A stretch of 38,301 bases of DNA, from positions 1 to 38,301 of the forward strand of contig JALTMP010000321.1 in assembly GCA_027001645.1 (NCBI GenBank). The letters are read 5' to 3'. The notes below the pieces were generated by a model that was not told where the DNA came from, ran no database searches, and was given only the letters and a program-made list of their open reading frames with translations. This stretch comes from Candidatus Heimdallarchaeota archaeon. Lineage in GTDB: Archaea; Asgardarchaeota; Heimdallarchaeia; Heimdallarchaeales; JAJRWK01. Position 1 is the stretch's first letter, and each line of letters begins with the position of its first letter. The position numbers were made by a program, and so were the translations under genes. Positions 7,717 to 38,180 of this stretch are shown here, piece by piece.

Positions 7717-9261
7717 ATGGGAATGATGCCAAACATGCCTTCAAATGATCCGTTAATCGAGCCCGGAGCCATGCCCGTTCTTGAAGAAACCTATCCATTG
7801 ATTCCTCCATTTGCATTCGCTCTGATCCAAACTGATCCGGTTTCTAAGAGAACCCAATACGTAGTCATGGAAAGCCCAATGAACAACAAGGAGGAGAAAG
7901 CCTTCAATTTCATCAAGGATGTCCTTGTTGAAGAGTTAGATATTGATTTCAGAACTTTTGGGGACAAGTCAAAGGCAGAAGAATACCTCAAGCGAAAAAT
8001 CAACAAAATCATAAGCGACTACAAAGTTGCTCTTCAACCAGAGGAACTTGACAAAGTAATGTACTACTTGATTAGGGACTTGATTGGATTCGGCAAAATT
8101 GAACCTTTAATGCGAGACCATCTTGTTGAAGATATCTCTTGCGATGGAGTGGGTATTCCAATTTATATCTGGCACAGAAAATATGAATCAATACCTACCA
8201 ATATTGTCTTTGAAAAAGAAGATGAGCTAGATAGCTTTGTCATTAAACTTGCCCAAAGAGCGGGAAGACATATCAGCATTGCCCAACCTCTTTTAGACGC
8301 TGCTCTTGAAGATGGATCCCGTGTCCAGCTCACCTTTGGCCGTGAAGTTACCCAACGAGGATCAACTTTCACGATTCGTAAGTTCAAAGCAGATCCATGG
8401 ACAATAACAGACCTGATAATTAACAATACGATTAGTTCCGAGATCGCTGCTTTCTATTGGTTTGTTATGGAACATAGAATCTCACTCTTAGTTGCCGGAG
8501 GAACTGCAGCTGGGAAAACATCTCTACTCAATGCTTTAGCCATGTTGATTAAACCTGATGTGAAAGTAATTTCCATTGAAGACACGGCAGAACTTAATAT
8601 TGCCCAGGAGAACTGGATTCCTAGTGTTGCGAGGGGGGGAATCGGAGAAACTGCTGCTGGCACTCGCAAAGGCGAAATCACGATGTATGATCTCCTTAGA
8701 GCCGCGATGAGGCAACGTCCCGATTACATCATTGTGGGAGAAATCCGTGGTGAAGAAGCATATGTACTCTTTCAGGCAATGAGTACCGGGCACAGTGGTC
8801 TGGGAACCATCCACGGTGATTCTGTTGAGGGGGTGATCAATAGGCTGGTTAACAAACCCATGTCCGTTCCCAAGGATATGTTGAGAACATTAGATCTCAT
8901 TCACATCCAGACCAAAGTGCGTCTTCGAGGAAAATTTGCCCGAAGATGCATGAACATCACAGAAATTATAGATATTGATCCCGTAACTAAAGAACTTCTC
9001 ACGAACAAAGTATTCCAATGGAACGCCTCAAAAGACATGTTTACATTTATGGGAAGAAGTTACACCATCGAAAAAATCCGTAACACATCAGGTCTTTCCG
9101 AACAGGAATGCTGGGATGAAATCAAGAGACGCGAAACAGTGCTAAAATGGATGGTTAAAAAACACATTAGGCACTACAGAGACGTAAGTGCTATGATCCG
9201 AGAATACTATTCTAACCCCGAAGAGACTTTTGAGAGAGCCAAACGAGGACTCGAGGCATAA
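7717..9261 (+). CDS. type IV pilus/archaellum-type secretion ATPase (TadA/ArlI/GspE superfamily)
   Basis: Walker A VAGGTAAGKTSLLNAL, PDYIIVGEIRGEEAYVLFQAMSTGHSGLGTIHGDSVEGVINRL. Confidence 0.96.
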   Translation: MGMMPNMPSNDPLIEPGAMPVLEETYPLIPPFAFALIQTDPVSKRTQYVVMESPMNNKEEKAFNFIKDVLVEELDIDFRTFGDKSKAEEYLKRKINKIISDYKVALQPEELDKVMYYLIRDLIGFGKIEPLMRDHLVEDISCDGVGIPIYIWHRKYESIPTNIVFEKEDELDSFVIKLAQRAGRHISIAQPLLDAALEDGSRVQLTFGREVTQRGSTFTIRKFKADPWTITDLIINNTISSEIAAFYWFVMEHRISLLVAGGTAAGKTSLLNALAMLIKPDVKVISIEDTAELNIAQENWIPSVARGGIGETAAGTRKGEITMYDLLRAAMRQRPDYIIVGEIRGEEAYVLFQAMSTGHSGLGTIHGDSVEGVINRLVNKPMSVPKDMLRTLDLIHIQTKVRLRGKFARRCMNITEIIDIDPVTKELLTNKVFQWNASKDMFTFMGRSYTIEKIRNTSGLSEQECWDEIKRRETVLKWMVKKHIRHYRDVSAMIREYYSNPEETFERAKRGLEA

Positions 9262-10249: not shown

Positions 10250-11266
10250 ATGTCATCAAAGATTTTAGAAATTGAAGAAGTAGAAGAAGAAATTGTCGTT
10301 GGACGTGCCCCCTTCTTCACCAGGGAGCGAATCATATGGTTATTTTCAGGAATATTGGCGTTCACACTATTTCTGATCGGATTCATTGATTTTATCATGG
10401 ACACAAGAATAGTGAGATCTCCTTCAAACGAGGCTTTTCTTGGCTTTGCAACAACTTCCACAGGAAGTGAAGGCATCATTCCAAATGAACTCGGTCTAAC
10501 CATCAACGATTGGATCATTTTTGCAATAGTCGTTCTAGTTGCAATTCCCGGGATCATGATTTATGAAAGAGAATATCGTAGAGAACGGGCTATTGATAAA
10601 CAACTTCCATTTCTCCTTCGAGAGATTGCCGATGCTCAAAAAATTGGAATGAGCCTACCACGGGCAATTCAAGAAGCTGCCAAACGAGACTATGGCCCTA
10701 TTACGGAACCGCTTCGGAAACTAGCAGCGAAGATCTCTTGGGGGATTCCTTTTCCACAAGCAATGAGGCAATTCATGCAAGAAGTCGATACTCCTTTGTC
10801 TAGACGTGCAAACATTCTCATTTTAGAGGCAGAACGAGCAGGTGGGGACCTGGAGAAAATCTTTGAAGCGGCAGAACGCCATACCCAAGAGATTCTAAAT
10901 GTTGAGGAAGAAAGAATCGGTGCGATCCGTCCTTATCTTTACATTGTATATATCGCCTTTTTTGTCCTACTCGGTGTCATTATTGTTCTCTTCCAATCTT
11001 TCTTTGTTCCATTCAGTCAGAAGTCAATTAGTTTAGGTATCGGAACTGACTTGGGCACAATTTCTATTCCAATTGGCCCCTTCACCATCCTATTCATGTA
11101 CTTCGTTGCCATTGAAGGCTTCTTCAGTGGTCTGGTTGCCGGGAAAATGGCAAGTGGAACTATCAAACATGGATTGTTACATTCAGCGATTATGATGATT
11201 ACCGGATATATCGCCTATAAGGCGTTCATAACCTCAGACTTATTTGGCTTCACTTTACCCGTGTAA
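10250..11266 (+). CDS. T2SF-domain pilus platform protein 2 (TadB/TadC-like)
   Basis: LPFLLREIADAQKIGMSLPRAIQEAA...LILEAERAGGDLEKIFEAAE is T2SF-type; flanking TM helices. AAGGAGG precedes the start. Confidence 0.88.
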   Translation: MSSKILEIEEVEEEIVVGRAPFFTRERIIWLFSGILAFTLFLIGFIDFIMDTRIVRSPSNEAFLGFATTSTGSEGIIPNELGLTINDWIIFAIVVLVAIPGIMIYEREYRRERAIDKQLPFLLREIADAQKIGMSLPRAIQEAAKRDYGPITEPLRKLAAKISWGIPFPQAMRQFMQEVDTPLSRRANILILEAERAGGDLEKIFEAAERHTQEILNVEEERIGAIRPYLYIVYIAFFVLLGVIIVLFQSFFVPFSQKSISLGIGTDLGTISIPIGPFTILFMYFVAIEGFFSGLVAGKMASGTIKHGLLHSAIMMITGYIAYKAFITSDLFGFTLPV

Positions 11267-16682: not shown

Positions 16683-16732
16683 GAGAACAAACATCAGTAG
16701 ATACAAGAAACCTATTTTAGGTGATCGAAGTT

Positions 16733-19700
16733 ATGAGAAAAAACGTACTCGCTCTGAGTCTTGCTTTTCTCACTATCGCGCTCATGGTGAGCCAAACGTC
16801 CGTCCAAGGGGCGTTGCTCTCGCCAATCGATAGTTGGGGAACTCAAGCTCTAGATACCTCCCGCAAATCCGAATTCTTAACGGTAATCGCGGGAATCGAT
16901 GACGCCGCTCTCGTACAGATCTCCACCTTCGGAGCTCTGGCAGAGAGCGATTACCCGATTACAATCGGGAGTGAATTAAGCTCCGCACTAGCCTGGACAT
17001 TCTACGTGGTCGATCAGTCTGATTATGCATCCTACCTGGTAAGAAAACCACTAGAGGCTCCTGACGGTGCAGTGCTTGCCATTGTATATCCAAACATTGC
17101 TGGCACGAAAGCAATGGCTCTACAAGCAGCATCCCTCTTCGAAGCCGAATACTCCATTACGTTATACCCCATGGGTGTGTTTGAAAGTCCCAGCCAGAAA
17201 GTATACATGTTCGTAGGAGGAGATGCAAGCACATTAATGGGATCCATGCTTGACGACGTAATTGGTTTTGGATCATCTGGCTTTAACGGTCTTGTTGACA
17301 AGACCACTGTTTCAAATGCACCTGTTAAGGCAGCCGGTTATGGAGCCATCAGCATTAACATGGGAATGGGCCCAGCCAAAAAAGTCTCATTCCAAGGCGT
17401 AATGTACGTGGATGCAAATGCAATCACAGGAACTGGCACCGACGCCGATCCTTTCGTGCTTTCCACACAGTCACTGTTTGGCCAAGCCATTAGCCCCCGA
17501 ACAGATTCTTTCCTTAGCAGAGTTCGGTTTAACTTCCCTTACGTTATCAGCGTTGTTCCAAATGGGATCATTCCTGCACAAACAACGAATCCCGTCCCAC
17601 AACTTACTGGAAGCTTCATTTGGGATCTCAAACATCCCAATAATGCGTTGTCGCTGGGCTCCCAAGCAGACATGAAAGTTATCTTCACCGTACCAGCAAA
17701 TGGCATTTCTCAATTCCCAATGGTGAGAGGCAATCTCTTCATAGATAATTCCAAGCTAAACGTAGACAACACCCTGGATGTCAACGTGGTTCTTGAGAAC
17801 CTCGGAAATGCAGAAGCCAAAAACATCGAAGTTGCCCACCCGCTTGGTGACGCTCTTTCATTCTTAGTATCCCAGGACATCAAAGCAAGGGTGCTCAAGC
17901 AAGGAGTTGGTTTCGACACGGGAGTTGTGAACGCAAATCTCAGTCTAAGAGTTGATCTTAGTGGAACTGGCACAATTTATGACAACAGCATTCTGTTTGA
18001 ACAAATAATGATTCAAATGATGGGCTGGTATGTGAACACAACCGATTCCTCAGTACTTGATTGGGACTTCGGTAATGGACAACAGAATGTTTTGACAATT
18101 TCGTTATCAACTGGTGGAACCTTATCATTTACACTCTTATCAAATGGAGGTATGCCTACATTTGTCGTTAATGCGATCAGTTCCGCTTTGTCTGATGTTT
18201 TTAGTGGATACTCACCTTCGCTTACTGATATCCTTTCTGGAGACATCTTTGGCGGCCGAGGTGCGGAAATGTTCTTTTCTACTGTCAACTCAACTTACTG
18301 GGCAATTCAGAATCAATACTATGAAGAGAAATCATTCTTCAATCTGGATGCTGGCAACTTCACGGTTGAAACCACGACAATTGCTCCCGGAACTCCCTAC
18401 GAACGTGATGAAGTCGTCTTGCGTGCAAGTGTTGCTTCACTCGCCCCTGGGGAGAACGTAACCCTCAACTGGAAGCTTACTGATGTTCCTGGAAGCATTG
18501 ATCGTTTTGTTCTTCCAGAAGTTTCTGCTGCGACCTACTTCCAACCAACCTCCGGCGGTGGTGGTTACAACGCTACATTCGTTAAAATCGCTGGAGGAGA
18601 TTATGGCGCAGACGACTTATTCCGCTATGTTTTCTATCATGTTGGCTTTTCTGGAAGATTCGCAACCCTTCCCGCAGTTCCAGATGACATGAAACTGTGG
18701 ATGCCCGAAACGGACGTCGAAGCACAGCTCAGTGTCGGAGGAGTGTTTAGTTACGAAGATGCTAACGGCTTTGGTTACTTTGGGTTGACTAATGGCGTGA
18801 ACTTCCAATATGGTGACGATGAAGCCGTCCTCGTAACCAAACTCCAAGCCAATGGAACAATCTTCAACCCTGGAGATGGAGTCAAGTTTACTGCTGAAAT
18901 CGAAAACACAGGAGATGCAGCAGCCAGCGATGTTACCGTTTACTTCTATCATGCACAACTGGACCGTGGATGGAGGCTACGAAGAATCAGCCTCATGGGC
19001 TCCGTAACCGCTCCTGACATCACCGCTGGAGGAACCGCAACCGTTGAATTCGAAACCGTCGCTAATTCCTACCTTGGATTCCATCCCGTATTTGCAGTGG
19101 TTGAATTCACTTCTGAGGCCGGCCAACCCGCCAAGGAAATTGTCAACTTTGCCAATACAAGCGATCCGCTTTACTGGGCAGACGGTGGAGAAACAAAGCA
19201 ATTCACCATTAGCAACTTGATCGGTGGCTTGCTTCAAGGAACCGGTGGGAGACAGCCTGCCTTCCCACAACCCAACATCGTTCAAGAAACACAAGTAAGC
19301 GAAGTCGACACTGATACCAACCAATTTACTTACACAATAACTGTACGAAATGATGGTGATGCCGCAAGCAACGTTACTATTGTTCAGTACTTCAACCAGA
19401 CGGAAGTCTCCTTCGTTTCAGCAACAGTATCTGGAGGTGGAACTGGCTCAGTAGACACTTCCGAAGCCATGTACCGATACGAAACTGATCAGATCCTTCT
19501 TGAACCAGGAGACTCAGTAACTGTAACAATCACCTTCGAGCTACTCGTTTCTTATGACATAGTCTTGCCTCCCGTCATCGTGGTCTACACAAGTTTGTAT
19601 GAAAGCGAACTTGGAGACCGACCAGTCACTGGTCTACCCGGCTTCAAGTCTGGAGGCGGTGGTGGCACGGGATTACTCGGCCTTAACGCTGAAGCGGCTG

Positions 19701-19906
19701 CAACTGGTTCCGCAGAAGAACAAGCTACTGGCAAGAGCGACTACACTGCTTACAGCAGTAGCACCTCTGTAGGTGCTAACATCGCCACTCAGAACACCCA
19801 AGGAGATGTTCGCGGCAGACAACTCTTCACTGGCTCGAACGAACTTGCTCTTGTCGCAATTCTAGGAACCGCCGGCTTGGCATTTCTCAAGAGAAGAAAA
19901 CGCTAG
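16733..19906 (+). CDS. large secreted, C-terminally membrane-anchored surface protein (S-layer/adhesin-like, with CARDB/DUF11-type modules)
   Basis: Signal peptide MRKNVLALSLAFLTIALMVSQTSVQGA; repeated N-G-D/T-G-D-A-A-x-(N/D)-V-T modules; Gly/Thr-rich linker; C-terminus NELALVAILGTAGLAFLKRRKR (TM plus basic tail). Confidence 0.85.
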   Translation: MRKNVLALSLAFLTIALMVSQTSVQGALLSPIDSWGTQALDTSRKSEFLTVIAGIDDAALVQISTFGALAESDYPITIGSELSSALAWTFYVVDQSDYASYLVRKPLEAPDGAVLAIVYPNIAGTKAMALQAASLFEAEYSITLYPMGVFESPSQKVYMFVGGDASTLMGSMLDDVIGFGSSGFNGLVDKTTVSNAPVKAAGYGAISINMGMGPAKKVSFQGVMYVDANAITGTGTDADPFVLSTQSLFGQAISPRTDSFLSRVRFNFPYVISVVPNGIIPAQTTNPVPQLTGSFIWDLKHPNNALSLGSQADMKVIFTVPANGISQFPMVRGNLFIDNSKLNVDNTLDVNVVLENLGNAEAKNIEVAHPLGDALSFLVSQDIKARVLKQGVGFDTGVVNANLSLRVDLSGTGTIYDNSILFEQIMIQMMGWYVNTTDSSVLDWDFGNGQQNVLTISLSTGGTLSFTLLSNGGMPTFVVNAISSALSDVFSGYSPSLTDILSGDIFGGRGAEMFFSTVNSTYWAIQNQYYEEKSFFNLDAGNFTVETTTIAPGTPYERDEVVLRASVASLAPGENVTLNWKLTDVPGSIDRFVLPEVSAATYFQPTSGGGGYNATFVKIAGGDYGADDLFRYVFYHVGFSGRFATLPAVPDDMKLWMPETDVEAQLSVGGVFSYEDANGFGYFGLTNGVNFQYGDDEAVLVTKLQANGTIFNPGDGVKFTAEIENTGDAAASDVTVYFYHAQLDRGWRLRRISLMGSVTAPDITAGGTATVEFETVANSYLGFHPVFAVVEFTSEAGQPAKEIVNFANTSDPLYWADGGETKQFTISNLIGGLLQGTGGRQPAFPQPNIVQETQVSEVDTDTNQFTYTITVRNDGDAASNVTIVQYFNQTEVSFVSATVSGGGTGSVDTSEAMYRYETDQILLEPGDSVTVTITFELLVSYDIVLPPVIVVYTSLYESELGDRPVTGLPGFKSGGGGGTGLLGLNAEAAATGSAEEQATGKSDYTAYSSSTSVGANIATQNTQGDVRGRQLFTGSNELALVAILGTAGLAFLKRRKR

Positions 19907-26639: not shown

Positions 26640-28853
26640 ATGCCGCTCGAAATAGGATTCCATCAGAAAACAAATGAACCAATTACTCTTCCCCGAAATG
26701 CATTGAAAAGACACATAGTGGCACTGGGGTCTTCAGGAAGTGGGAAAACGGTCATGGGCAAAGCAATTATCGAAGAATGCGTTCGAGAAGAAATTCCTGT
26801 GATTGTCATTGATATCCAAGGAGATCTTGCGAGTCTCGCTCTTCTAGGAGATAAGAACTCAGTAACTGAGAAAGGAACCCCTGAAAGAATATATGAAGAC
26901 TACAAAAAGAAAGCCGCGGTGGCCATTTTCACTCCTGCGTCGCGAAAAGGCATTCCAATAAGCATTAATCCTCTAAAAGCCCCTCCAGAAGGTATTGATG
27001 AAGAAGACCGGATCCTTTCTATTGATGCAACAGCGTCATCTGTTCTCCCGTTCCTCGGCTATGATGAAGATACCGATGCGGGAAGCCTTGTAAAAGACTA
27101 TTTATTTGTCCTTCTTCAAAGAATTTGGGAAAAGAACGAAGAAATTAATGGATTTGGAGATCTCGCCCAAGCTATCACGAACGATGCTAATTACTTGCAG
27201 CCCGGAGAAGAAAATCTGCTCACAGAAAAAGAAAAGGAAAAGCTAGCTCGCAAAGTGAGAGGCTTAACTGTTGGCGCTGATGCTCTGCTTTTCAACTTGG
27301 GGATCTCTCTGGATGTAGAAAATCTAATTAGCTGGGCGCCTAAGGGTAAGGTTCCTGTCAACATATTATATCTCAACACTCTTCATCGGGATAGAGACAA
27401 GCAATCCTTCATTGCAGTCATTGCTCAGGAGACCTATCGATGGATGCTTAAGAATCCCTCTAGGAAAGTTCAGCTCATCTTCTTCATCGATGAACTTGCC
27501 GGATTGGTTCCACCACACCCGTATAACCCGCCAACTAAGAAATACATACAGCTTCTCATGAAACAAGCTCGGAAATATGGCGTGTCAATGATGCTAGCAA
27601 CTCAAAACATCTCGGATGTGGATTACAAGTCTCTTTCTCAAGTAGCTACCTGGTTTCTTGGTAGAATGATGACACAGCAAGATCTTGCAAAAGTCAGACA
27701 AATCATTGAATCTATCAGCCCTAGTGAGGCTGACTCCATCATTGCTCAACTTCCAAAACTCACCGTTGGAAAATTCATGCTTCTATCACCTGACAACTAC
27801 GATGAGGTTCAACCCATTAGAGTAAGATGGCTAGTTACTGATCATCGAACCCTAGATGACACTCAAGTCAAGGAGATCATGGATCAATCTGGTTATCGCT
27901 CATTATTCACAAAAATGGAAGAAACCGCAGAGGAAGAGGCGAAAATTAAAGGAATTGTTGAATCCTCTGCCATAATTGAGGAGGAAGAGGAAGAAAAGCC
28001 CCCAGAAGAAACTAAGAAAATCGAAAAAGGAAACCTCAATCAGATCATCAGCCAGCTTCAAACTAAGCCTGAAGCCCTCAGTGCTGAAGAAATTGCTGAA
28101 CTAAGTGGAGTTTCCAAGAGCCAAGCTAACAAAGAATTAAAAGCGCTTGTAGATTCTGGAAAACTCGTAAAAGGTAAGTACAAAGGAAAGACTGTTTTCT
28201 ACAACCCTGAAACTGGAATTGATCCCGAGAAATTCATTGTGGGGGCTGTCTATAGATTCCCCTTGAAATTCCCAATCGCTAAGGCCAAAAAGAGAATCAG
28301 AGACGGAATGATGAAAACACTGGGAGTTGTCCAAGAAAGAGTAGTTGGACAACCTCGACTTTACTACGTCCCCTTCTGGAGGGTGCCAGTATTTAGATGG
28401 GTTAAGAAAGGTGGCTTGCTTGGCTTTGTTGGCAGAAAAGAGGTAAAAGAACGATTCTATGTGTATGTCAATGCATTAACTGGAGAAATTTTTGTTCCAG
28501 ATTCTGGACAACTCAAGTCTATAAATATGCTTGAGGAAATTAATCTGAATAAGCTCGATCTTCCTAGCAAAGGTTCAATCCGCTTCGAAAAACTTGTTCC
28601 TGGAACACTACGAGGGCAGGATCTTTTACCAAAGATGGCTCGCGAAGACGCCGCAGAACAAGTAAGGATGGTAATTGGAGCTGACCTAGCAGAGGACGAA
28701 AACCCAGCACTAGTCTATATGCCACTATGGGAATTCCTTGTTGAGGATAAACAGATTCCCGATAATAAGCGCTATCTATGGCTGGATGGTTACCTTGGAA
28801 CCATTTACAATGAAGACATCACTGCTCAAGCTCGACTCGTTGCAACGGACTAA
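26640..28853 (+). CDS. HerA/DUF87-like P-loop ATPase with winged-helix and duplicated C-terminal module
   Basis: Walker A LGSSGSGKTVMGKAI, VIVIDIQGDLASL, LIFFIDELAGLVP, MLATQNISDVDYKSLSQ; wHTH LSAEEIAELSGVSKSQANKELKALVDSGKLVKGKYKGKTVFY; two YVPFW/YMPLW segments. Confidence 0.88.
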   Translation: MPLEIGFHQKTNEPITLPRNALKRHIVALGSSGSGKTVMGKAIIEECVREEIPVIVIDIQGDLASLALLGDKNSVTEKGTPERIYEDYKKKAAVAIFTPASRKGIPISINPLKAPPEGIDEEDRILSIDATASSVLPFLGYDEDTDAGSLVKDYLFVLLQRIWEKNEEINGFGDLAQAITNDANYLQPGEENLLTEKEKEKLARKVRGLTVGADALLFNLGISLDVENLISWAPKGKVPVNILYLNTLHRDRDKQSFIAVIAQETYRWMLKNPSRKVQLIFFIDELAGLVPPHPYNPPTKKYIQLLMKQARKYGVSMMLATQNISDVDYKSLSQVATWFLGRMMTQQDLAKVRQIIESISPSEADSIIAQLPKLTVGKFMLLSPDNYDEVQPIRVRWLVTDHRTLDDTQVKEIMDQSGYRSLFTKMEETAEEEAKIKGIVESSAIIEEEEEEKPPEETKKIEKGNLNQIISQLQTKPEALSAEEIAELSGVSKSQANKELKALVDSGKLVKGKYKGKTVFYNPETGIDPEKFIVGAVYRFPLKFPIAKAKKRIRDGMMKTLGVVQERVVGQPRLYYVPFWRVPVFRWVKKGGLLGFVGRKEVKERFYVYVNALTGEIFVPDSGQLKSINMLEEINLNKLDLPSKGSIRFEKLVPGTLRGQDLLPKMAREDAAEQVRMVIGADLAEDENPALVYMPLWEFLVEDKQIPDNKRYLWLDGYLGTIYNEDITAQARLVATD

Positions 28854-31654: not shown

Positions 31655-31703
31655 GTATCGATGAATAAGTCTTAAACAAATTGTGACAATAGAGGTAATA
31701 GTT

Positions 31704-32690
31704 ATGTCAAAACAGCAAATATCAATAGAAACAATTTCGAAAAAGCTCGAAAAAACCGTTGAAGAAATAAAGAAAGTCATTGTGGGCCAAGACGAAATCA
31801 TTGAGGGCGTCTTGCTTGGTTTGCTAGCTGATGGACACGTGCTTTTGGAAGGTGTTCCCGGAGTCGGAAAAACGCTCCTTGTACGCGCGCTTGCAAAATC
31901 CTTAAGTTGTGATTTTAGCCGTATACAATTTACCCCTGATTTGATGCCTGGCGACGTTACAGGAGTTACAGCGTATAATCCAAGCACTGGAGAATTTTAC
32001 TTTAAGCGAGGACCTATTTTTGCGAATATTCTTCTAGCGGATGAAATAAACCGTGCTCCACCTAAAACACAGGCATCAATGCTTGAAGCCATGCAAGAAA
32101 GACAGGTTAGCATGGATGAAAAAACTTACACTTTGGAAAGACCTTTCTTAGTCATAGCAACTCAAAACCCCGTTGAGCAAGAAGGAACCTATCCTTTGCC
32201 AGAAGCGCAACTTGATCGGTTTGTCTTCAAGTTGCTCGTTGAATATCCCGGGGTTGACGACGAGTTAGAAATTGTTGAAAGATTTACTTCTGGTGAGGAC
32301 GCCTATGTCAAACTTGAACAAATAGTTCCCTCTCTCAACAAGTCCGAAATAGTTCAAGTTCAGCAAGTTCTTCGAGAGCAAATTAAACTAGAACGAGAAA
32401 TTATGGAATATATCGTTAAACTAGTAAATGCCACTCGACAAAGTGAAGAAGTAGAAATAGGAGCATCACCACGAGCAAGCTTATGGCTTGCAATCACCGG
32501 GAAAGCAAGAGCTTTGTTAAGCGGCAGGGATTACGTTAGCCCCGGAGACATTCAAAGAGTGGCTCCCATGGTCCTTCGCCATCGAATCATCATCAAGCCC
32601 GAGTGGGAATTTGAAGGCATAACTTCTGATACCATTATTGAACGAGTTCTCAAATACGTAGAACCCCCAACACTTGAAGTATCATCGTAA
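31704..32690 (+). CDS. MoxR-family AAA+ ATPase
   Basis: GQDEIIEGVLLGLLADGHVLLEGVPGVGKTLLVRALA, IQFTPDLMPGDVTG, LLADEINRAPPKTQASMLEAMQERQV, ATQNPVEQEGTYPLPEAQLDRF. ATG 31704 preceded by GAGGTA. Confidence 0.96.
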   Translation: MSKQQISIETISKKLEKTVEEIKKVIVGQDEIIEGVLLGLLADGHVLLEGVPGVGKTLLVRALAKSLSCDFSRIQFTPDLMPGDVTGVTAYNPSTGEFYFKRGPIFANILLADEINRAPPKTQASMLEAMQERQVSMDEKTYTLERPFLVIATQNPVEQEGTYPLPEAQLDRFVFKLLVEYPGVDDELEIVERFTSGEDAYVKLEQIVPSLNKSEIVQVQQVLREQIKLEREIMEYIVKLVNATRQSEEVEIGASPRASLWLAITGKARALLSGRDYVSPGDIQRVAPMVLRHRIIIKPEWEFEGITSDTIIERVLKYVEPPTLEVSS

Positions 32691-32837
32691 AAGGTAGCAT
32701 GGAGAAGAAAAACAATGCAGATCAAAATGCTGAGTAATATGCGAACGCTACCGTCTCCTATCAACTCAGATGCATCTCTTTTCCTTTTTGAAAATACTTA
32801 CATCCATCCAAGTATAGGACCTATCTAGGTGAAATCT

Positions 32838-34991
32838 ATGCAAAAGTTATTTCTGATCCTGGCCATCTTGATGCTGACTACCAGCGTTGCTGTGAGTACA
32901 GAACTTCTTGCTAATCAACTAGAAGACACCAATGCCAACAAAGGCCTCGATCAAGAAATAGTTCGATCCACACCTAGTGATGTTTACATTGAAGAGTATG
33001 CTAGATATGAGCGTGCGGTTGGGAATGAACGACCAAGACAATATTTGAAAGGACTAGTTTCTTGGTTTCTTCTAGCAGGTGTTTCAATTGAGTTTTTCTT
33101 GAACACATCTGATATTATTGGTGAACCTAAAATCTGGGACCCAAACGACCCCAATGATCCAACAAAGGTCGAATACGAGATACACCCTGACCGCATCACT
33201 ATAACCCCCAGTAGCCAAACTTTCATGTACGAAATAGAAGCTTATTACGACCCTGACGTAATCGGAGATACTGGATTCATTGTTATCTTCCAGACTCAAA
33301 CCGTAAACTTTCCCCTAAACTTCGATCTAGAAAACGGCACTACTATCTATGCTTACACCGATTACAAATACACTGTCCTACTCCCTGAAGGAGCCGGAAT
33401 CGTTAGTTACGGCCCTACTGATGCAGAGCTCTTCAAAGAAGGGAATCGCTTTGGTTTAAAATGGGAATATCGCCATCGGGCAATGGACAGTAAACATGAC
33501 CCCTTTGTAGGTGTTATTACATACGCCTTTGATCCCATCTATCTCCAATTTACCGAGATTATCTATCAAAACCGAAAACAACAAGAAATCAAACAAGAAC
33601 AAGAACAGCGTCTCCGTCTCCAAAACCTTGCTCTCATACTCATTGCCATTTTCAGCTTCATTGCGGCCCTACTGGCAATCTTACTTGCCTACCTCATAGT
33701 AAAACGACAGTTTAAGCCTAAATTGGAAGAAGCCAAGCAACTTCCTCGAAAAACAGCCAAAGATGTTGAAAAGACAAGAACCATGCAGAAAAAAATAGCA
33801 GCATTTCTAGCAATCGGATTCTTGGTTCTTTCATCACAAGCATTCCTATCAGTAACATTTGCTCAAGATGCAATACAACCAAAAAATGATCGCATTGTTT
33901 GGGATGGGGTCATTGAATTGTTCAAGGACGGTCTTTCAGAGGAAACCGTCCAGATGGCTCTTCCAATTCCCCAGTCCAGAATAGTTATCTGGGTTAACAC
34001 TTCTCAAGTTCTTGCCTTTACACCTTATGATTCATCTGGAGCTGAGCTCAACTACGAGACCTTTTCGGATCGATTTGTTGTAAATAACCCTGGGGATTAT
34101 ATCAAGTATCGCATGACTAAGCCCTATGAGGTTTACAATAACAGCGGAATGCTCATCTACATCAATCGGTTCTGGCTGGAATTTGTGAATCCAAATGCTC
34201 AACCCGATGAAATCTCGTATTTTCCAGCAGACATAACTTACACTGTTGTGTTACCCAGTGACGCCATTGTATATTCCGCTTCCCCGTCAGACCTCATGAA
34301 ATTTGAGCGGGGTCAAGATGGCAGAAAAAGGATCTCTTTCAAAGATGAATTACGGCAGATAGACGCATTTCATGATCCCTTCACTCTTCAAGTAACGTTT
34401 AGCTTTGAAAATGTCCTAGATGCAATCGAGAACCTAAATGTTGAATTTGAGCAGTTTAAGGTAGAAACCTTAAATCAACAAGAACTTATCCAATCAACAG
34501 CACAACAACTGCTCCTCATTGCTCTCCTTGCAATCATTACTCCAATTCTAGCATTCATCCTTGCTTATTGGGTTTTTAGAAAAAGATTTCAACGTATGCT
34601 TGAGGAGCAACAAGAAAAAACCGAGGAAGAACTACTTTTAGAATCTCCTCAGATACAAATTCTCCTCGAGATGCAGAAGAATCTTGAAAAACAACCTTGG
34701 CGTGCAGTCAAAGGTGCCTACGACATGTTGAAACACCTATTAGCAACCATTAGCCATCAGTCTCTCGATCGATTCGATCTCGACATTGCCTTACAAGAGC
34801 TTATTGAGCTAGGGTATTCTGTTGATATTGAACGGATTAAGGAAACCTACAAGTTGTTGCAACCCCTAATCGAAACCATCGAACGCGAAAAAGGCATTCC
34901 AATGGATAATGACGAAGCTGCCAGAATCATTCAAGACACTGATGATCTAATTCAAGAGCTGTGGAAAATATACCGGAGGCAAAAAACATGA
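32838..34991 (+). CDS. internally duplicated membrane protein of the MoxR-DUF58 operon
   Basis: Signal peptide MQKLFLILAILMLTTSVAVS, ectodomain, TM; then a second signal-peptide-like segment, ectodomain and TM; helical C-terminal domain. AGGTGA upstream of ATG 32838. Confidence 0.8.
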   Translation: MQKLFLILAILMLTTSVAVSTELLANQLEDTNANKGLDQEIVRSTPSDVYIEEYARYERAVGNERPRQYLKGLVSWFLLAGVSIEFFLNTSDIIGEPKIWDPNDPNDPTKVEYEIHPDRITITPSSQTFMYEIEAYYDPDVIGDTGFIVIFQTQTVNFPLNFDLENGTTIYAYTDYKYTVLLPEGAGIVSYGPTDAELFKEGNRFGLKWEYRHRAMDSKHDPFVGVITYAFDPIYLQFTEIIYQNRKQQEIKQEQEQRLRLQNLALILIAIFSFIAALLAILLAYLIVKRQFKPKLEEAKQLPRKTAKDVEKTRTMQKKIAAFLAIGFLVLSSQAFLSVTFAQDAIQPKNDRIVWDGVIELFKDGLSEETVQMALPIPQSRIVIWVNTSQVLAFTPYDSSGAELNYETFSDRFVVNNPGDYIKYRMTKPYEVYNNSGMLIYINRFWLEFVNPNAQPDEISYFPADITYTVVLPSDAIVYSASPSDLMKFERGQDGRKRISFKDELRQIDAFHDPFTLQVTFSFENVLDAIENLNVEFEQFKVETLNQQELIQSTAQQLLLIALLAIITPILAFILAYWVFRKRFQRMLEEQQEKTEEELLLESPQIQILLEMQKNLEKQPWRAVKGAYDMLKHLLATISHQSLDRFDLDIALQELIELGYSVDIERIKETYKLLQPLIETIEREKGIPMDNDEAARIIQDTDDLIQELWKIYRRQKT

Positions 34992-35638
34992 ATTCAAACA
35001 AATCACTTTCAATGCTCCTTTTGGTTCTCCTATTCTTTGGTGCTATGAACATATCCTTAGGAGCTGCAGCACCCGCTACACAGACCTACATCGAAGATTT
35101 CGATGATGGCTTTCAACTCAAAATTCAAGTAACGGGAGAATTACAATGGCCAGAACAAGAGCCCCAACCGATCAATGTCACAATAATCGCGCATGAAATG
35201 CCTTTGGACGTGGCTGCAAGGATTTTCATTACGCTCATTAGCATTCAAGTAATCCAAGGGGATCAAGCCATCGATCTAAAAGCATCTACCATAAACAAGG
35301 CCCTAGACGCAATCAATCAATCTATCACAGAGACCATAACTCTGAATCCGCCACCAGTAGACAGTTTTCATTTAAACGTCACTGTGATCGGATCAACAGA
35401 ATTGGGAGGAAACCAATCCCCCCAGAAGCAAGTGGTAGTCCAGTTTCCTAAAGAAGGGTCGATAATTGTTTTGAGAGAAGAATTAAAGCCATTGATTCAA
35501 CTTTATGGTTTTCCTGATCGAACTTCATTTTGGTTGTGGTTCCGAATCTTCTTGGTTCCCCTTGGGATTATAGCACTACAATTTGGGTTTGTAGCCACAT
35601 ACGTTGGTTTGAACAAAATGCGGAGGAAACAAAAGTGA
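34988..35638 (+). CDS. signal peptide + ectodomain + single C-terminal TM protein of the MoxR-DUF58 operon
   Basis: MNSNKSLSMLLLVLLFFGAMNISLGAAA; C-terminal TM SFWLWFRIFLVPLGIIALQFGFVATYVG. Starts in an ATGA overlap; GGAGG upstream. Confidence 0.78.
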   Translation: MNSNKSLSMLLLVLLFFGAMNISLGAAAPATQTYIEDFDDGFQLKIQVTGELQWPEQEPQPINVTIIAHEMPLDVAARIFITLISIQVIQGDQAIDLKASTINKALDAINQSITETITLNPPPVDSFHLNVTVIGSTELGGNQSPQKQVVVQFPKEGSIIVLREELKPLIQLYGFPDRTSFWLWFRIFLVPLGIIALQFGFVATYVGLNKMRRKQK

Positions 35639-37263
35639 GTATTACCACCTCAAGACAAGACAAAAAACCAACAGACGCCTATTCCAGAGTAGTTGACAAG
35701 GTCAGAGCATACCTTCGCTTTTTCGGAATGAAAATTACCGCTGTCAAGCCAGGGAACCGTAGGGCAAGCATTTACGCAAGAAGAGGAGTTTATCCCTCTC
35801 AAGTTCAAATTCACATAAGAGAAACAATCAAGGGAACTGCAGTAGTTTTTCGGCCTCACAACTATTGGACCTCTTTCTTCGCTGGTCTACCATATTTTTT
35901 CCTTGGGTTGTTTTCTCTCCTCGCTTACCAGACCCCTGCAAATAAATTAGTAGAAAAATTCTCTTCATGGGCGCTCATAAACCCCGGTATTCTCTTCTTT
36001 GGGACAGAAAATCCTAGTTGGTATATTGGCCTCATATTTTTAGTACTTGGAGCAATGTACTCCATTGTCGAAATTGTCGAGCGAAATATTAGAGTAAGCA
36101 AGCTCAAACAGCGATTTCCTTACTTCACAAGAAATGCAATCTGGTCTCCTTCTGACACTCCAACTGTTATTGATGTAATTCGTTCAACAAACTCTCCTTT
36201 CATATTCTCTTACATCATTGCGATTGTCTATTTCTCTCCCCTAAGCTTAGACCAGGAAATTCTCAATAAGTTAATTTCCGTATATGGGATATCTGCTGAG
36301 CAGTTGCATCAATCAATTACGATTGCCTCATTCATAATCATAACGTTTGTTGCTGGATTGTACTCCGGTGGGAAAATCATTCATCATGTTGCTTTTAGAT
36401 CTAAGATCGACCCCTCAGCTAGACTAAAAGGAACTCACCGAGAAAAAAGGTTGCAAATCCTCGCTATTGGGTCTACAACTGGCGGCCTAGCAGTTTTGCT
36501 CATTATTATGGTTATAGGTGCGATATTTGGATTTCCAAACTGGCAAATTCTCCTCCTTCTAACTCCTATTATCGGTGCTGGAGCTGGGGCCCTAGGTGCT
36601 CTAGCAGCAAACGAGGGGGAAGAATGGCTAATTGGCTTCTCAGTTGCTTACTTCTTGGCTGCTGACATGATTTTTGTCTTCAATACCGGAAAAAATGGAG
36701 GCTTCGCTTGGCTTATCATCATCACATTGATGTTGCTTTTGTTTCCGCTTTCTAACTATGTCATGGCAAAATTCATCCAGCAGACCAGTTCTGCTCATGA
36801 TGAAGATCCCCAGTTATTCTATTCGCTCTTTCCTCTCTTTCTCTACGTATCAATTTTCTATTTCAGAAAAGAAAAACAAGCAAGCCAAGTCATCCAGAAG
36901 ATAATACAAACCGCCGAGGAATCAGCAGTCGTTTCCGATACAGACATGGAACGATTGAGAATGGTACTAATAGATAAGCAGAGACTAATCTCAAAAAACC
37001 CCACACTCCCATCTGTCGCTAAACTATACTTTTCAATTATTTCTAAATACACATTAAGTCAAAAGGAAACCACACTAATACCTACTCCCGAAGAATTAAT
37101 CGATTGGATTAAGAACAAGATTCCAGCAACTTCCGCGCTCTCGGTTGATGAAAACATTCTGACTATTGATGCTGCTCTTTGGAATCCCCATTACATCCCT
37201 GATAATTCTGAACTAAGCCAGGCTGAAATTGAGTTGCAAAAGATACTAGACCTAATTAAATAA
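35635..37263 (+). CDS. polytopic membrane protein of the MoxR-DUF58 operon
   Basis: Multiple TM segments. GTG 35635 in a GTGA overlap, preceded by CGGAGGA; the tracker start (35530) lies inside the upstream gene. Confidence 0.78.
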   Translation: MSITTSRQDKKPTDAYSRVVDKVRAYLRFFGMKITAVKPGNRRASIYARRGVYPSQVQIHIRETIKGTAVVFRPHNYWTSFFAGLPYFFLGLFSLLAYQTPANKLVEKFSSWALINPGILFFGTENPSWYIGLIFLVLGAMYSIVEIVERNIRVSKLKQRFPYFTRNAIWSPSDTPTVIDVIRSTNSPFIFSYIIAIVYFSPLSLDQEILNKLISVYGISAEQLHQSITIASFIIITFVAGLYSGGKIIHHVAFRSKIDPSARLKGTHREKRLQILAIGSTTGGLAVLLIIMVIGAIFGFPNWQILLLLTPIIGAGAGALGALAANEGEEWLIGFSVAYFLAADMIFVFNTGKNGGFAWLIIITLMLLLFPLSNYVMAKFIQQTSSAHDEDPQLFYSLFPLFLYVSIFYFRKEKQASQVIQKIIQTAEESAVVSDTDMERLRMVLIDKQRLISKNPTLPSVAKLYFSIISKYTLSQKETTLIPTPEELIDWIKNKIPATSALSVDENILTIDAALWNPHYIPDNSELSQAEIELQKILDLIK

Positions 37264-37271
37264 AACGTGAG

Positions 37272-38180
37272 ATGAAAATGCTAGAACCCCTACTACGCCG
37301 TAAACTTCGCAATCTTTTCATCCAATCGCGGATTAAAGTAACAACGTTCTTACAGGGTCATAGACGATCCGTTTTTCTTGGGCCAGGGACAGAATATGCT
37401 GATTTACGAGAATACGTCCCGGGTGATGACTTGAGAAGGGTTGATTGGAGAGCCACAGCTCGAAGACCCGGAACCTTGATAGTTCGAGAGTATGAAGTTG
37501 AACGGAATGTAAATGTCCTCGTCACTATTGACGCCAGCCAATCAATGTTGCTCGGAGAAGGTTCTCCCAGAATTCGTTCTGCTATTTTGGCTGCAGCCGC
37601 GCTTGGTCAGGCTACAATCAATAGCCGCGATTTTTTTGGAATTGGTCTCTTCTCCTCAGATATTGACTTGTTCCTTCCTCCAAGAGGAGGAAGAAGACAT
37701 CTGTACTCCGCGCTCTCAAAAGCTATTGGTGTAATTCCCAGTGGAACAACCACTCTTGGCCCCTCGATTAGGGAGGTCGCTGGAAAACTCAAGAGAAGAA
37801 GCATTATTATCATTATTACTGATTTGCATGATAATTTTGAAGAAACCATCAAGGGTTTTCGAGCTGCTGTTAGTAGGGGGCATGATATTCATGTGATACA
37901 CATTAGCGACCCTTTGGAGTACGTATTCCCAGGAAGGCTTGGAAAGGTGAAAATCTTCGACCCTAACCAAGATGACCCCGTAGTAATTGATCTTTCTGAT
38001 CCCATTGATCGGGGGATCTACTATGAAGCTTTGATCCAAGAAATCGAGAACGTGCGGAATTTTGTCAAAACCCTAAGATCGCTTCGAATCCGGGTTGTTG
38101 AAGCATCTACAAAGGACGTGGTAGATCAAATACTTTTAACATATTACAGCGCGAAGCGAAGAGGAAAGGGATTGAGATGA
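37272..38180 (+). CDS. DUF58-family protein (vWA-like)
   Basis: EYADLREYVPGDDLRRVDWRATARRPGTLIVREYEVERNVNVLVTIDASQSM, a DUF58 core with DxSxS MIDAS-type motif. Confidence 0.94.
   Translation: MKMLEPLLRRKLRNLFIQSRIKVTTFLQGHRRSVFLGPGTEYADLREYVPGDDLRRVDWRATARRPGTLIVREYEVERNVNVLVTIDASQSMLLGEGSPRIRSAILAAAALGQATINSRDFFGIGLFSSDIDLFLPPRGGRRHLYSALSKAIGVIPSGTTTLGPSIREVAGKLKRRSIIIIITDLHDNFEETIKGFRAAVSRGHDIHVIHISDPLEYVFPGRLGKVKIFDPNQDDPVVIDLSDPIDRGIYYEALIQEIENVRNFVKTLRSLRIRVVEASTKDVVDQILLTYYSAKRRGKGLR

Follow-up and report, generated by a model that had tools for sequence, protein, structure and literature searches.

A single open frame in a Candidatus Heimdallarchaeota genome encodes a membrane protein whose two halves resemble each other, which raises the questions of how such a protein arose, to which family it belongs and what it does. 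Within the window, i.e., the whole stretch of 38,301 nucleotides that was analysed, the frame stays open from 32829 to 34991 on the forward strand and gives 720 amino acids if it starts at the GTG at 32829 and 717 if it starts at the ATG at 32838. The Asgard archaea are the microbes nearest to eukaryotes, and ribophorin I, a subunit of the eukaryotic machinery (OST) that attaches sugars to proteins, is a eukaryotic signature protein that is also found in them. The duplicated protein is real, ancient and order-wide, and it is related to ribophorin I.

Table 1. Features of the duplicated gene and of its operon partners in the window.
Feature	Position	Strand	Remarks
MoxR AAA+ ATPase	31683..32690	+	PF07726 E 9e-66; adjoins the duplicated gene wherever the contig allows
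Duplicated membrane protein gene	32838..34991	+	717 aa; two tandem ectodomain-TM units plus cytosolic tail
N-terminal signal / TM1	32838..32900	+	residues 1-21; hydrophobicity 2.45
Ectodomain 1, beta-sandwich	32970..33527	+	residues 45-230; AF2 pLDDT mostly 80-92; homologous to ectodomain 2
RAMDSKHD motif, copy 1	33477..33500	+	residues 214-221; D and H invariant in both copies
Membrane-proximal helix and TM2, putative stop-transfer	33534..33701	+	residues 233-288; AF2 model, hydrophobicity 3.15
Positively charged loop, predicted cytosolic	33702..33797	+	residues 289-320; net charge +8
Internal signal-peptide-like segment / TM3	33795..33845	+	residues 320-336; hydrophobic in 27/27 orthologues examined
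Signal-peptidase-like site T-F-A/Q	33855..33866	+	residues 340-343; A and Q in 8/9 f1-f3 orthologues
Ectodomain 2, beta-sandwich	33870..34403	+	residues 345-522; match to ribophorin I domain 2
RQIDAFHD motif, copy 2	34353..34376	+	residues 506-513
TM4	34509..34577	+	residues 558-580; AF2 model and hydrophobicity
Helical tail, predicted cytosolic	34578..34988	+	residues 581-717; AF2 model; weakly similar to DUF4350-protein tail
Small signal-ectodomain-TM protein	34988..35638	+	ATGA overlap with the duplicated gene; no Pfam family above cut-off
Multi-TM protein	35635..37263	+	no Pfam family above cut-off; found with the MoxR-DUF58 operon
DUF58 (vWA-like) protein	37272..38180	+	PF01882 E 7e-35

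The earlier note had described the two halves as alike in layout and sequence, and this is borne out. Indeed, BLASTP aligns half 1 with half 2 over 222 columns at 25% identity (50.8 bits, E 1e-11), their Smith-Waterman score of 197 compares with a shuffled mean of 37 +/- 5, and the ectodomains freed of signal and TM segments still score 132 against 34 +/- 5.5 for shuffled sequences (z = 17.8). When the halves are compared as profiles, ectodomain and TM together match at P 99.8% (E 5e-28) and the ectodomains alone at P 99.4%. On these scores the homology between the halves is real, and the alignments and profiles support a tandem duplication, within one frame, of a unit made of hydrophobic segment, ectodomain and TM. 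The peptides quoted when the resemblance was first described are found in the translation of 32838-34991, and the ATG at 33783 is in frame as residue 316. The motif R-x-[MI]-D-x-x-H-D occurs once in each half (Table 1), and its D and H account for two of only six columns that are invariant when both halves of 15 orthologues are aligned together. Of the HDPF motif, said to be conserved in both copies, D..H[DE] stands, while HDPF itself is not kept in the second half, where HDAW, HDVF, HELF and HDLF are seen.

The gene is present in 35 of the 38 genomes searched, every match falling within the order Heimdallarchaeales; of the three genomes that lack it, two belong outside the order and the third is a fragmented MAG from within it. 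Complete orthologues are single frames of about 710-741 aa that contain both copies. The named relatives carrying the gene are Heimdallarchaeota and Kariarchaeota MAGs, one of which is closed (CP084167, Heimdallarchaeum endolithica) and has the same fused frame. With a profile of the single ectodomain-TM unit, the copies were found paired in one frame and split at contig ends only. Single-unit and full-length profiles found no credible homologue outside Heimdallarchaeales among 224 genomes of the phylum, no genome searched contained an unfused or single-unit form (other Asgards gave TM-level noise only), and a scan of genome contigs gave no loci other than those titled Heimdallarchaeota, Kariarchaeota, Asgard group or unnamed archaeon. 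A tree built from 36 half-sequences sets the 18 N-halves apart from the 18 C-halves by a branch with support of 100/100. Since the halves form two fully supported clades, the duplication, as read from the sequences, predates the Heimdallarchaeales ancestor, which excludes both a recent event and an artefact. The MAG from which the window comes, as contig C321, is fragmented into 430 contigs, a setting in which a recent fusion, a frameshift or an assembly error might produce a fused frame; more than 25 further genomes, and closed CP084167 as well, have this open frame, which, together with the separation of N- and C-halves in the tree, makes such an origin next to impossible. Thus, the survey of split versus fused homologues found all complete orthologues fused, with a junction that is no assembly or frameshift artefact. 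The fusion of a formerly separate complete gene, as the earlier note had it, is not supported, given that no unfused or single-unit form was found and that the duplication is older than the order.

The likeness of the ectodomain to ribophorin I had previously gone unrecognised, and searches with sequence families do not reveal it. In particular, Pfam and NCBIfam gave no family at cut-off for the duplicated protein, with sub-threshold TM matches only; PF04597 was absent from the Pfam matches of the window protein (E up to 1) and from the 25 commonest families in a scan of 18 family members, and a PDB sequence search with the protein returned no match. The AlphaFold2 (AF2) model, obtained with 27 orthologues, shows a beta-sandwich in each ectodomain and a long helix after each (mean pLDDT 75.7). 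When the full-length model was compared with the PDB by Foldseek, ranks 1-7 were all OST subunit 1 (ribophorin I/Ost1, E 6.5e-14 to 9e-10; chain identities confirmed by sequence search), and M1 aminopeptidase N-domains came after them at about 1e-7. By AF2 and Foldseek, the predicted structure has two tandem beta-sandwiches of the ribophorin fold. The TM-scores to OST subunit 1 are low (0.18-0.32) and the rmsd is high, perhaps from flexible domain orientation, so that a fold relation is supported rather than a close superposition.

The M1 aminopeptidase N-terminal domain (PF17900) has this beta-sandwich fold in common (Foldseek E about 1e-8), and the ectodomain could simply be an instance of it, resembling ribophorin I by a shared fold with no specific evolutionary link. 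With the C-half alone, M1 N-domains fit almost as well as the top-ranking OST subunit 1 (E 2.6e-8 versus 1.8e-8), and searches of Pfam and PDB at the HMMER level did not link the family to ribophorin I. The profile comparison separates the two candidates, however. In HHalign, the C-half against 36 Asgard ribophorin I sequences scored 61.9 over D2 plus TM (P 93%), against a maximum of 36.5 over 60 block-shuffles, 23.6 for the reversed profile, up to 35.6 for operon-protein decoys and 21.1, a shuffle-level value, for M1_N. The C-terminal unit profile thus matches ribophorin domain 2 with its TM helix (P 91-93%) above every shuffle and decoy, in a comparison built on shallow alignments of 18-36 sequences. 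This match stays co-linear when Heimdallarchaeales ribophorins are left out (180 columns over D2 plus TM) and takes in the following TM, which M1 enzymes lack, and the first seven full-length structural matches point the same way. Pfam scans of the window protein and family members detected no peptidase M1 domain, and the duplicated protein, unlike these enzymes, is membrane-anchored and has no profile similarity to PF17900. As its score is background, the M1 aminopeptidase was rejected as a relative at the sequence level, and a likeness by fold alone is unlikely.

The relation to ribophorin I is specific to one of its domains. The ectodomains match D2 at P up to 70% and D1 at P up to 2.3%, the joint ectodomain profile scores 36.1 against D2 (shuffle maximum 31.1), and the N-half alone matches ribophorin I more weakly (P 27-55%), while ribophorin D1 and D2 profiles match each other at P 98%. 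Since both copies match D2 and not D1, and D1 and D2 match each other, the simplest history is an independent duplication of a D2-TM unit; profile and structure comparison support the relation of the unit to ribophorin D2-TM. PF04597 was found in 138 of the 224 Asgard genomes searched, and the genome of the window has a separate canonical ribophorin I gene (G000:C414:4809-5522, in a 703-aa frame, PF04597 E 4e-16). Full-length ribophorins of Heimdallarchaeales consist of signal, ectodomain, one TM and tail and, at about 700 aa, are longer than most in other Asgards. Because this gene exists separately, the duplicated protein counts as a family of its own, duplicated independently. Like ribophorin I/Ost1 (PF04597, including Asgard Ost1), it has two homologous beta-sandwich ectodomains, a TM helix and a cytosolic helical tail. 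Ribophorin I, however, is laid out as D1, D2, a single TM besides its signal and a cytosolic four-helix bundle, whereas here each sandwich has its own TM, there are four hydrophobic segments and both copies are D2-like. Moreover, the protein lies below all Pfam detection and is encoded with MoxR and DUF58, and its tail is unrelated at the profile level (homology to the ribophorin four-helix tail was rejected, P below 2%). As neither the Pfam match nor the layout of ribophorin I was found, the protein is a relative of ribophorin I but does not belong to its family. No earlier description of the duplicated family was found in the literature searched.

The hydrophobic segments of the protein, near residues 4-20, 264-288, 320-336 and 558-580, suggest how the chain may enter the membrane. 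The N-terminal signal/TM1 would start translocation and place ectodomain 1 outside, TM2 would halt transfer and leave the positive loop in the cytosol, and the internal signal-like segment would restart translocation, so that ectodomain 2 would also lie outside, followed by TM4 and a cytosolic tail. The third segment has a hydrophobicity of 2.04, below TM2 (3.15) and TM4 (3.01), and AF2 pLDDT is below 50 in this mid-protein region; the segment most likely re-inserts the chain. Two sequons (N-x-S/T), N89 (33102) and N434 (34137), are each conserved in 24 of 27 orthologues, which fits with both ectodomains being outside.

The earlier note left it open whether the internal segment re-inserts or is cleaved. 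Its signal-like character is upheld; the conserved xxA/Q site favours cleavage in three of the four families, and the fourth lacks it. In f1-f3, a positive n-region and an h-region are followed by xxA/Q, in keeping with the small residues at -3 and -1 of a type I signal peptidase site; the motif is found in eight of nine orthologues, the ninth having a shifted VNA. The Heimdallarchaeum-type family, f4, has no xxA/Q and no A/Q at that position, some of its members having TEAQ further on. In f1-f3, signal peptidase I thus probably recognises the internal segment, and plausible cleavage would yield two separately anchored chains; in f4 the segment would stay a plain TM. The alternative, an ordinary TM helix in an uncleaved four-TM chain in all species, falls only a little short of an even chance. 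Indeed, f4 keeps the segment without the xxA motif at that place, and the retention of the fused frame throughout the order suggests that covalent linkage matters; against this, A342 and Q343 are conserved in f1-f3 within an otherwise variable linker, past a helix-breaking residue and at signal-peptidase distance, and xAQ lies behind only one of 59 other internal in-to-out segments, a background taken from the ORFs of the loci compared plus the window rather than genome-wide. The ATG at 33783 is not kept as a start codon, orthologues having M, I, V, Q, L or P there; for this reason, and because no ribosome-binding site is evident, separate translation of the second half from it was rejected.

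The genomic context, which the earlier note left unused, places the gene in one operon with MoxR and DUF58 genes. The order MoxR, duplicated protein, small membrane protein, multi-TM protein and DUF58 is kept across Heimdallarchaeales, a conservation visible in the loci themselves, and is intact at nearly every locus long enough; the exceptions are L035, with no DUF58 within the stretch covered, and L038, whose MoxR is split over two frames. Start/stop overlaps (ATGA, GTGA) at 34988-35638 and 35635-37263 suggest translational coupling; for the multi-TM protein, the listed ORF starts at TTG 35530 and the orthologue start suggests GTG 35635. In relatives the operon continues, beyond the point at which the window contig ends, with a CARDB protein and then a large Rce1-like/HEAT membrane protein; at L031:9081-13132 these further operon genes encode 608 and 742 aa, respectively. 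Elsewhere in the window, a HerA-like ATPase with a winged-helix region (26640-28853) is also encoded near the operon in L032 and, though on the opposite strand, in L035, and a 1061-aa protein with DUF11/CARDB surface repeats (16721-19906) lies downstream of a type II/IV secretion-like pair (T2SSE 7717-9261, T2SSF 10250-11266).

The MoxR-DUF58 operon takes another form in the other Asgards examined, where it includes a DUF4350 protein as well as a transglutaminase/DUF4129 protein, domains that were not detected in the duplicated protein or its operon partners. Both operons share the MoxR and DUF58 neighbours and encode, beside MoxR, a membrane protein with a cytosolic helical tail. The neighbour of MoxR is the DUF4350 protein in other Asgards, whereas in Heimdallarchaeales the duplicated ribophorin-like protein takes this place and DUF58 has a short form of 300 aa, unlike the about 440-470 aa of the other operons. 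The two tails score 28.7 against 17.1 for shuffles (P 15-54%), a weak match that is suggestive of kinship. The DUF4350 protein of a canonical Asgard operon (L081:5043-6377) matches OST48_N at E 9e-6, below cut-off. By their domain matches, MoxR-linked proteins appear to resemble both ribophorin I and OST48, two accessory subunits of OST, the latter with this match below cut-off.

MoxR-vWA pairs have been described as modules of chaperone and co-chaperone to which each system adds a third component of its own (PMC7159879), and because of its genomic context and topology the duplicated protein is proposed as the extracytoplasmic, anchoring subunit of a MoxR (AAA+)-DUF58 (vWA) envelope system. 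It would likewise join an AAA+ MoxR and a vWA partner, although the third components of those ternary systems are VMAP, iSTAND, FtsH or beta-propeller proteins and not membrane-anchored sandwiches (PMC7159879). MoxR and DUF58 may engage the tail on the inside, and on the outside the paired sandwiches may bind partner subunits or else clients, in the form of surface or nascent glycoproteins; eukaryotic Ost1, with two similar luminal beta domains, has been reported to bind glycosylated peptides (PMC7226087). The protein might instead be a translocon or OST accessory subunit, a second, diverged ribophorin acting with STT3 or Sec61. Its ribophorin D2-like units with TM and its conserved sequons would suit such a role, ribosomes are bound through the cytosolic tail of Asgard Ost1 (PMC11417166), and many OST subunits are encoded by Heimdallarchaeia (PMC10307638). 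However, a canonical ribophorin I is already present in this genome and in nearly all relatives, the gene is tied to MoxR and DUF58, and the tail is unlike that of ribophorin, so that this role is distinctly improbable.

The best explanation as a whole, somewhat likelier to be right than wrong, is a MoxR-DUF58 envelope subunit of four TMs, in which a beta-sandwich like domain 2 of ribophorin I occurs twice, each time with its TM helix, ahead of a cytosolic helical tail. The duplication behind it antedates the Heimdallarchaeales ancestor and would be independent of the one that gave D1 and D2 within ribophorin I. The fuller claim, unlikely when all its parts are taken together, is that the ribophorin I superfamily has a Heimdallarchaeales branch not described before, which was duplicated on its own along with the TM, is cut at an internal site by signal peptidase after translation and serves a MoxR-DUF58 AAA+ system as its surface subunit. 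The protein offers a testable case of internal signal-peptidase processing, and the conserved surface residues D..H give a handle for a test of function. If true, and together with the OST48_N-like DUF4350 proteins, the finding would suggest a common ancestry of the OST accessory ectodomains, those of ribophorin I and OST48, and the envelope proteins linked to MoxR in Asgard archaea. If ribophorin I has a second relative, one with duplicated domains that is tied to AAA+ and vWA proteins rather than to OST and is universal in Heimdallarchaeales, this would show that the ectodomain family had roles besides N-glycosylation before eukaryotes.
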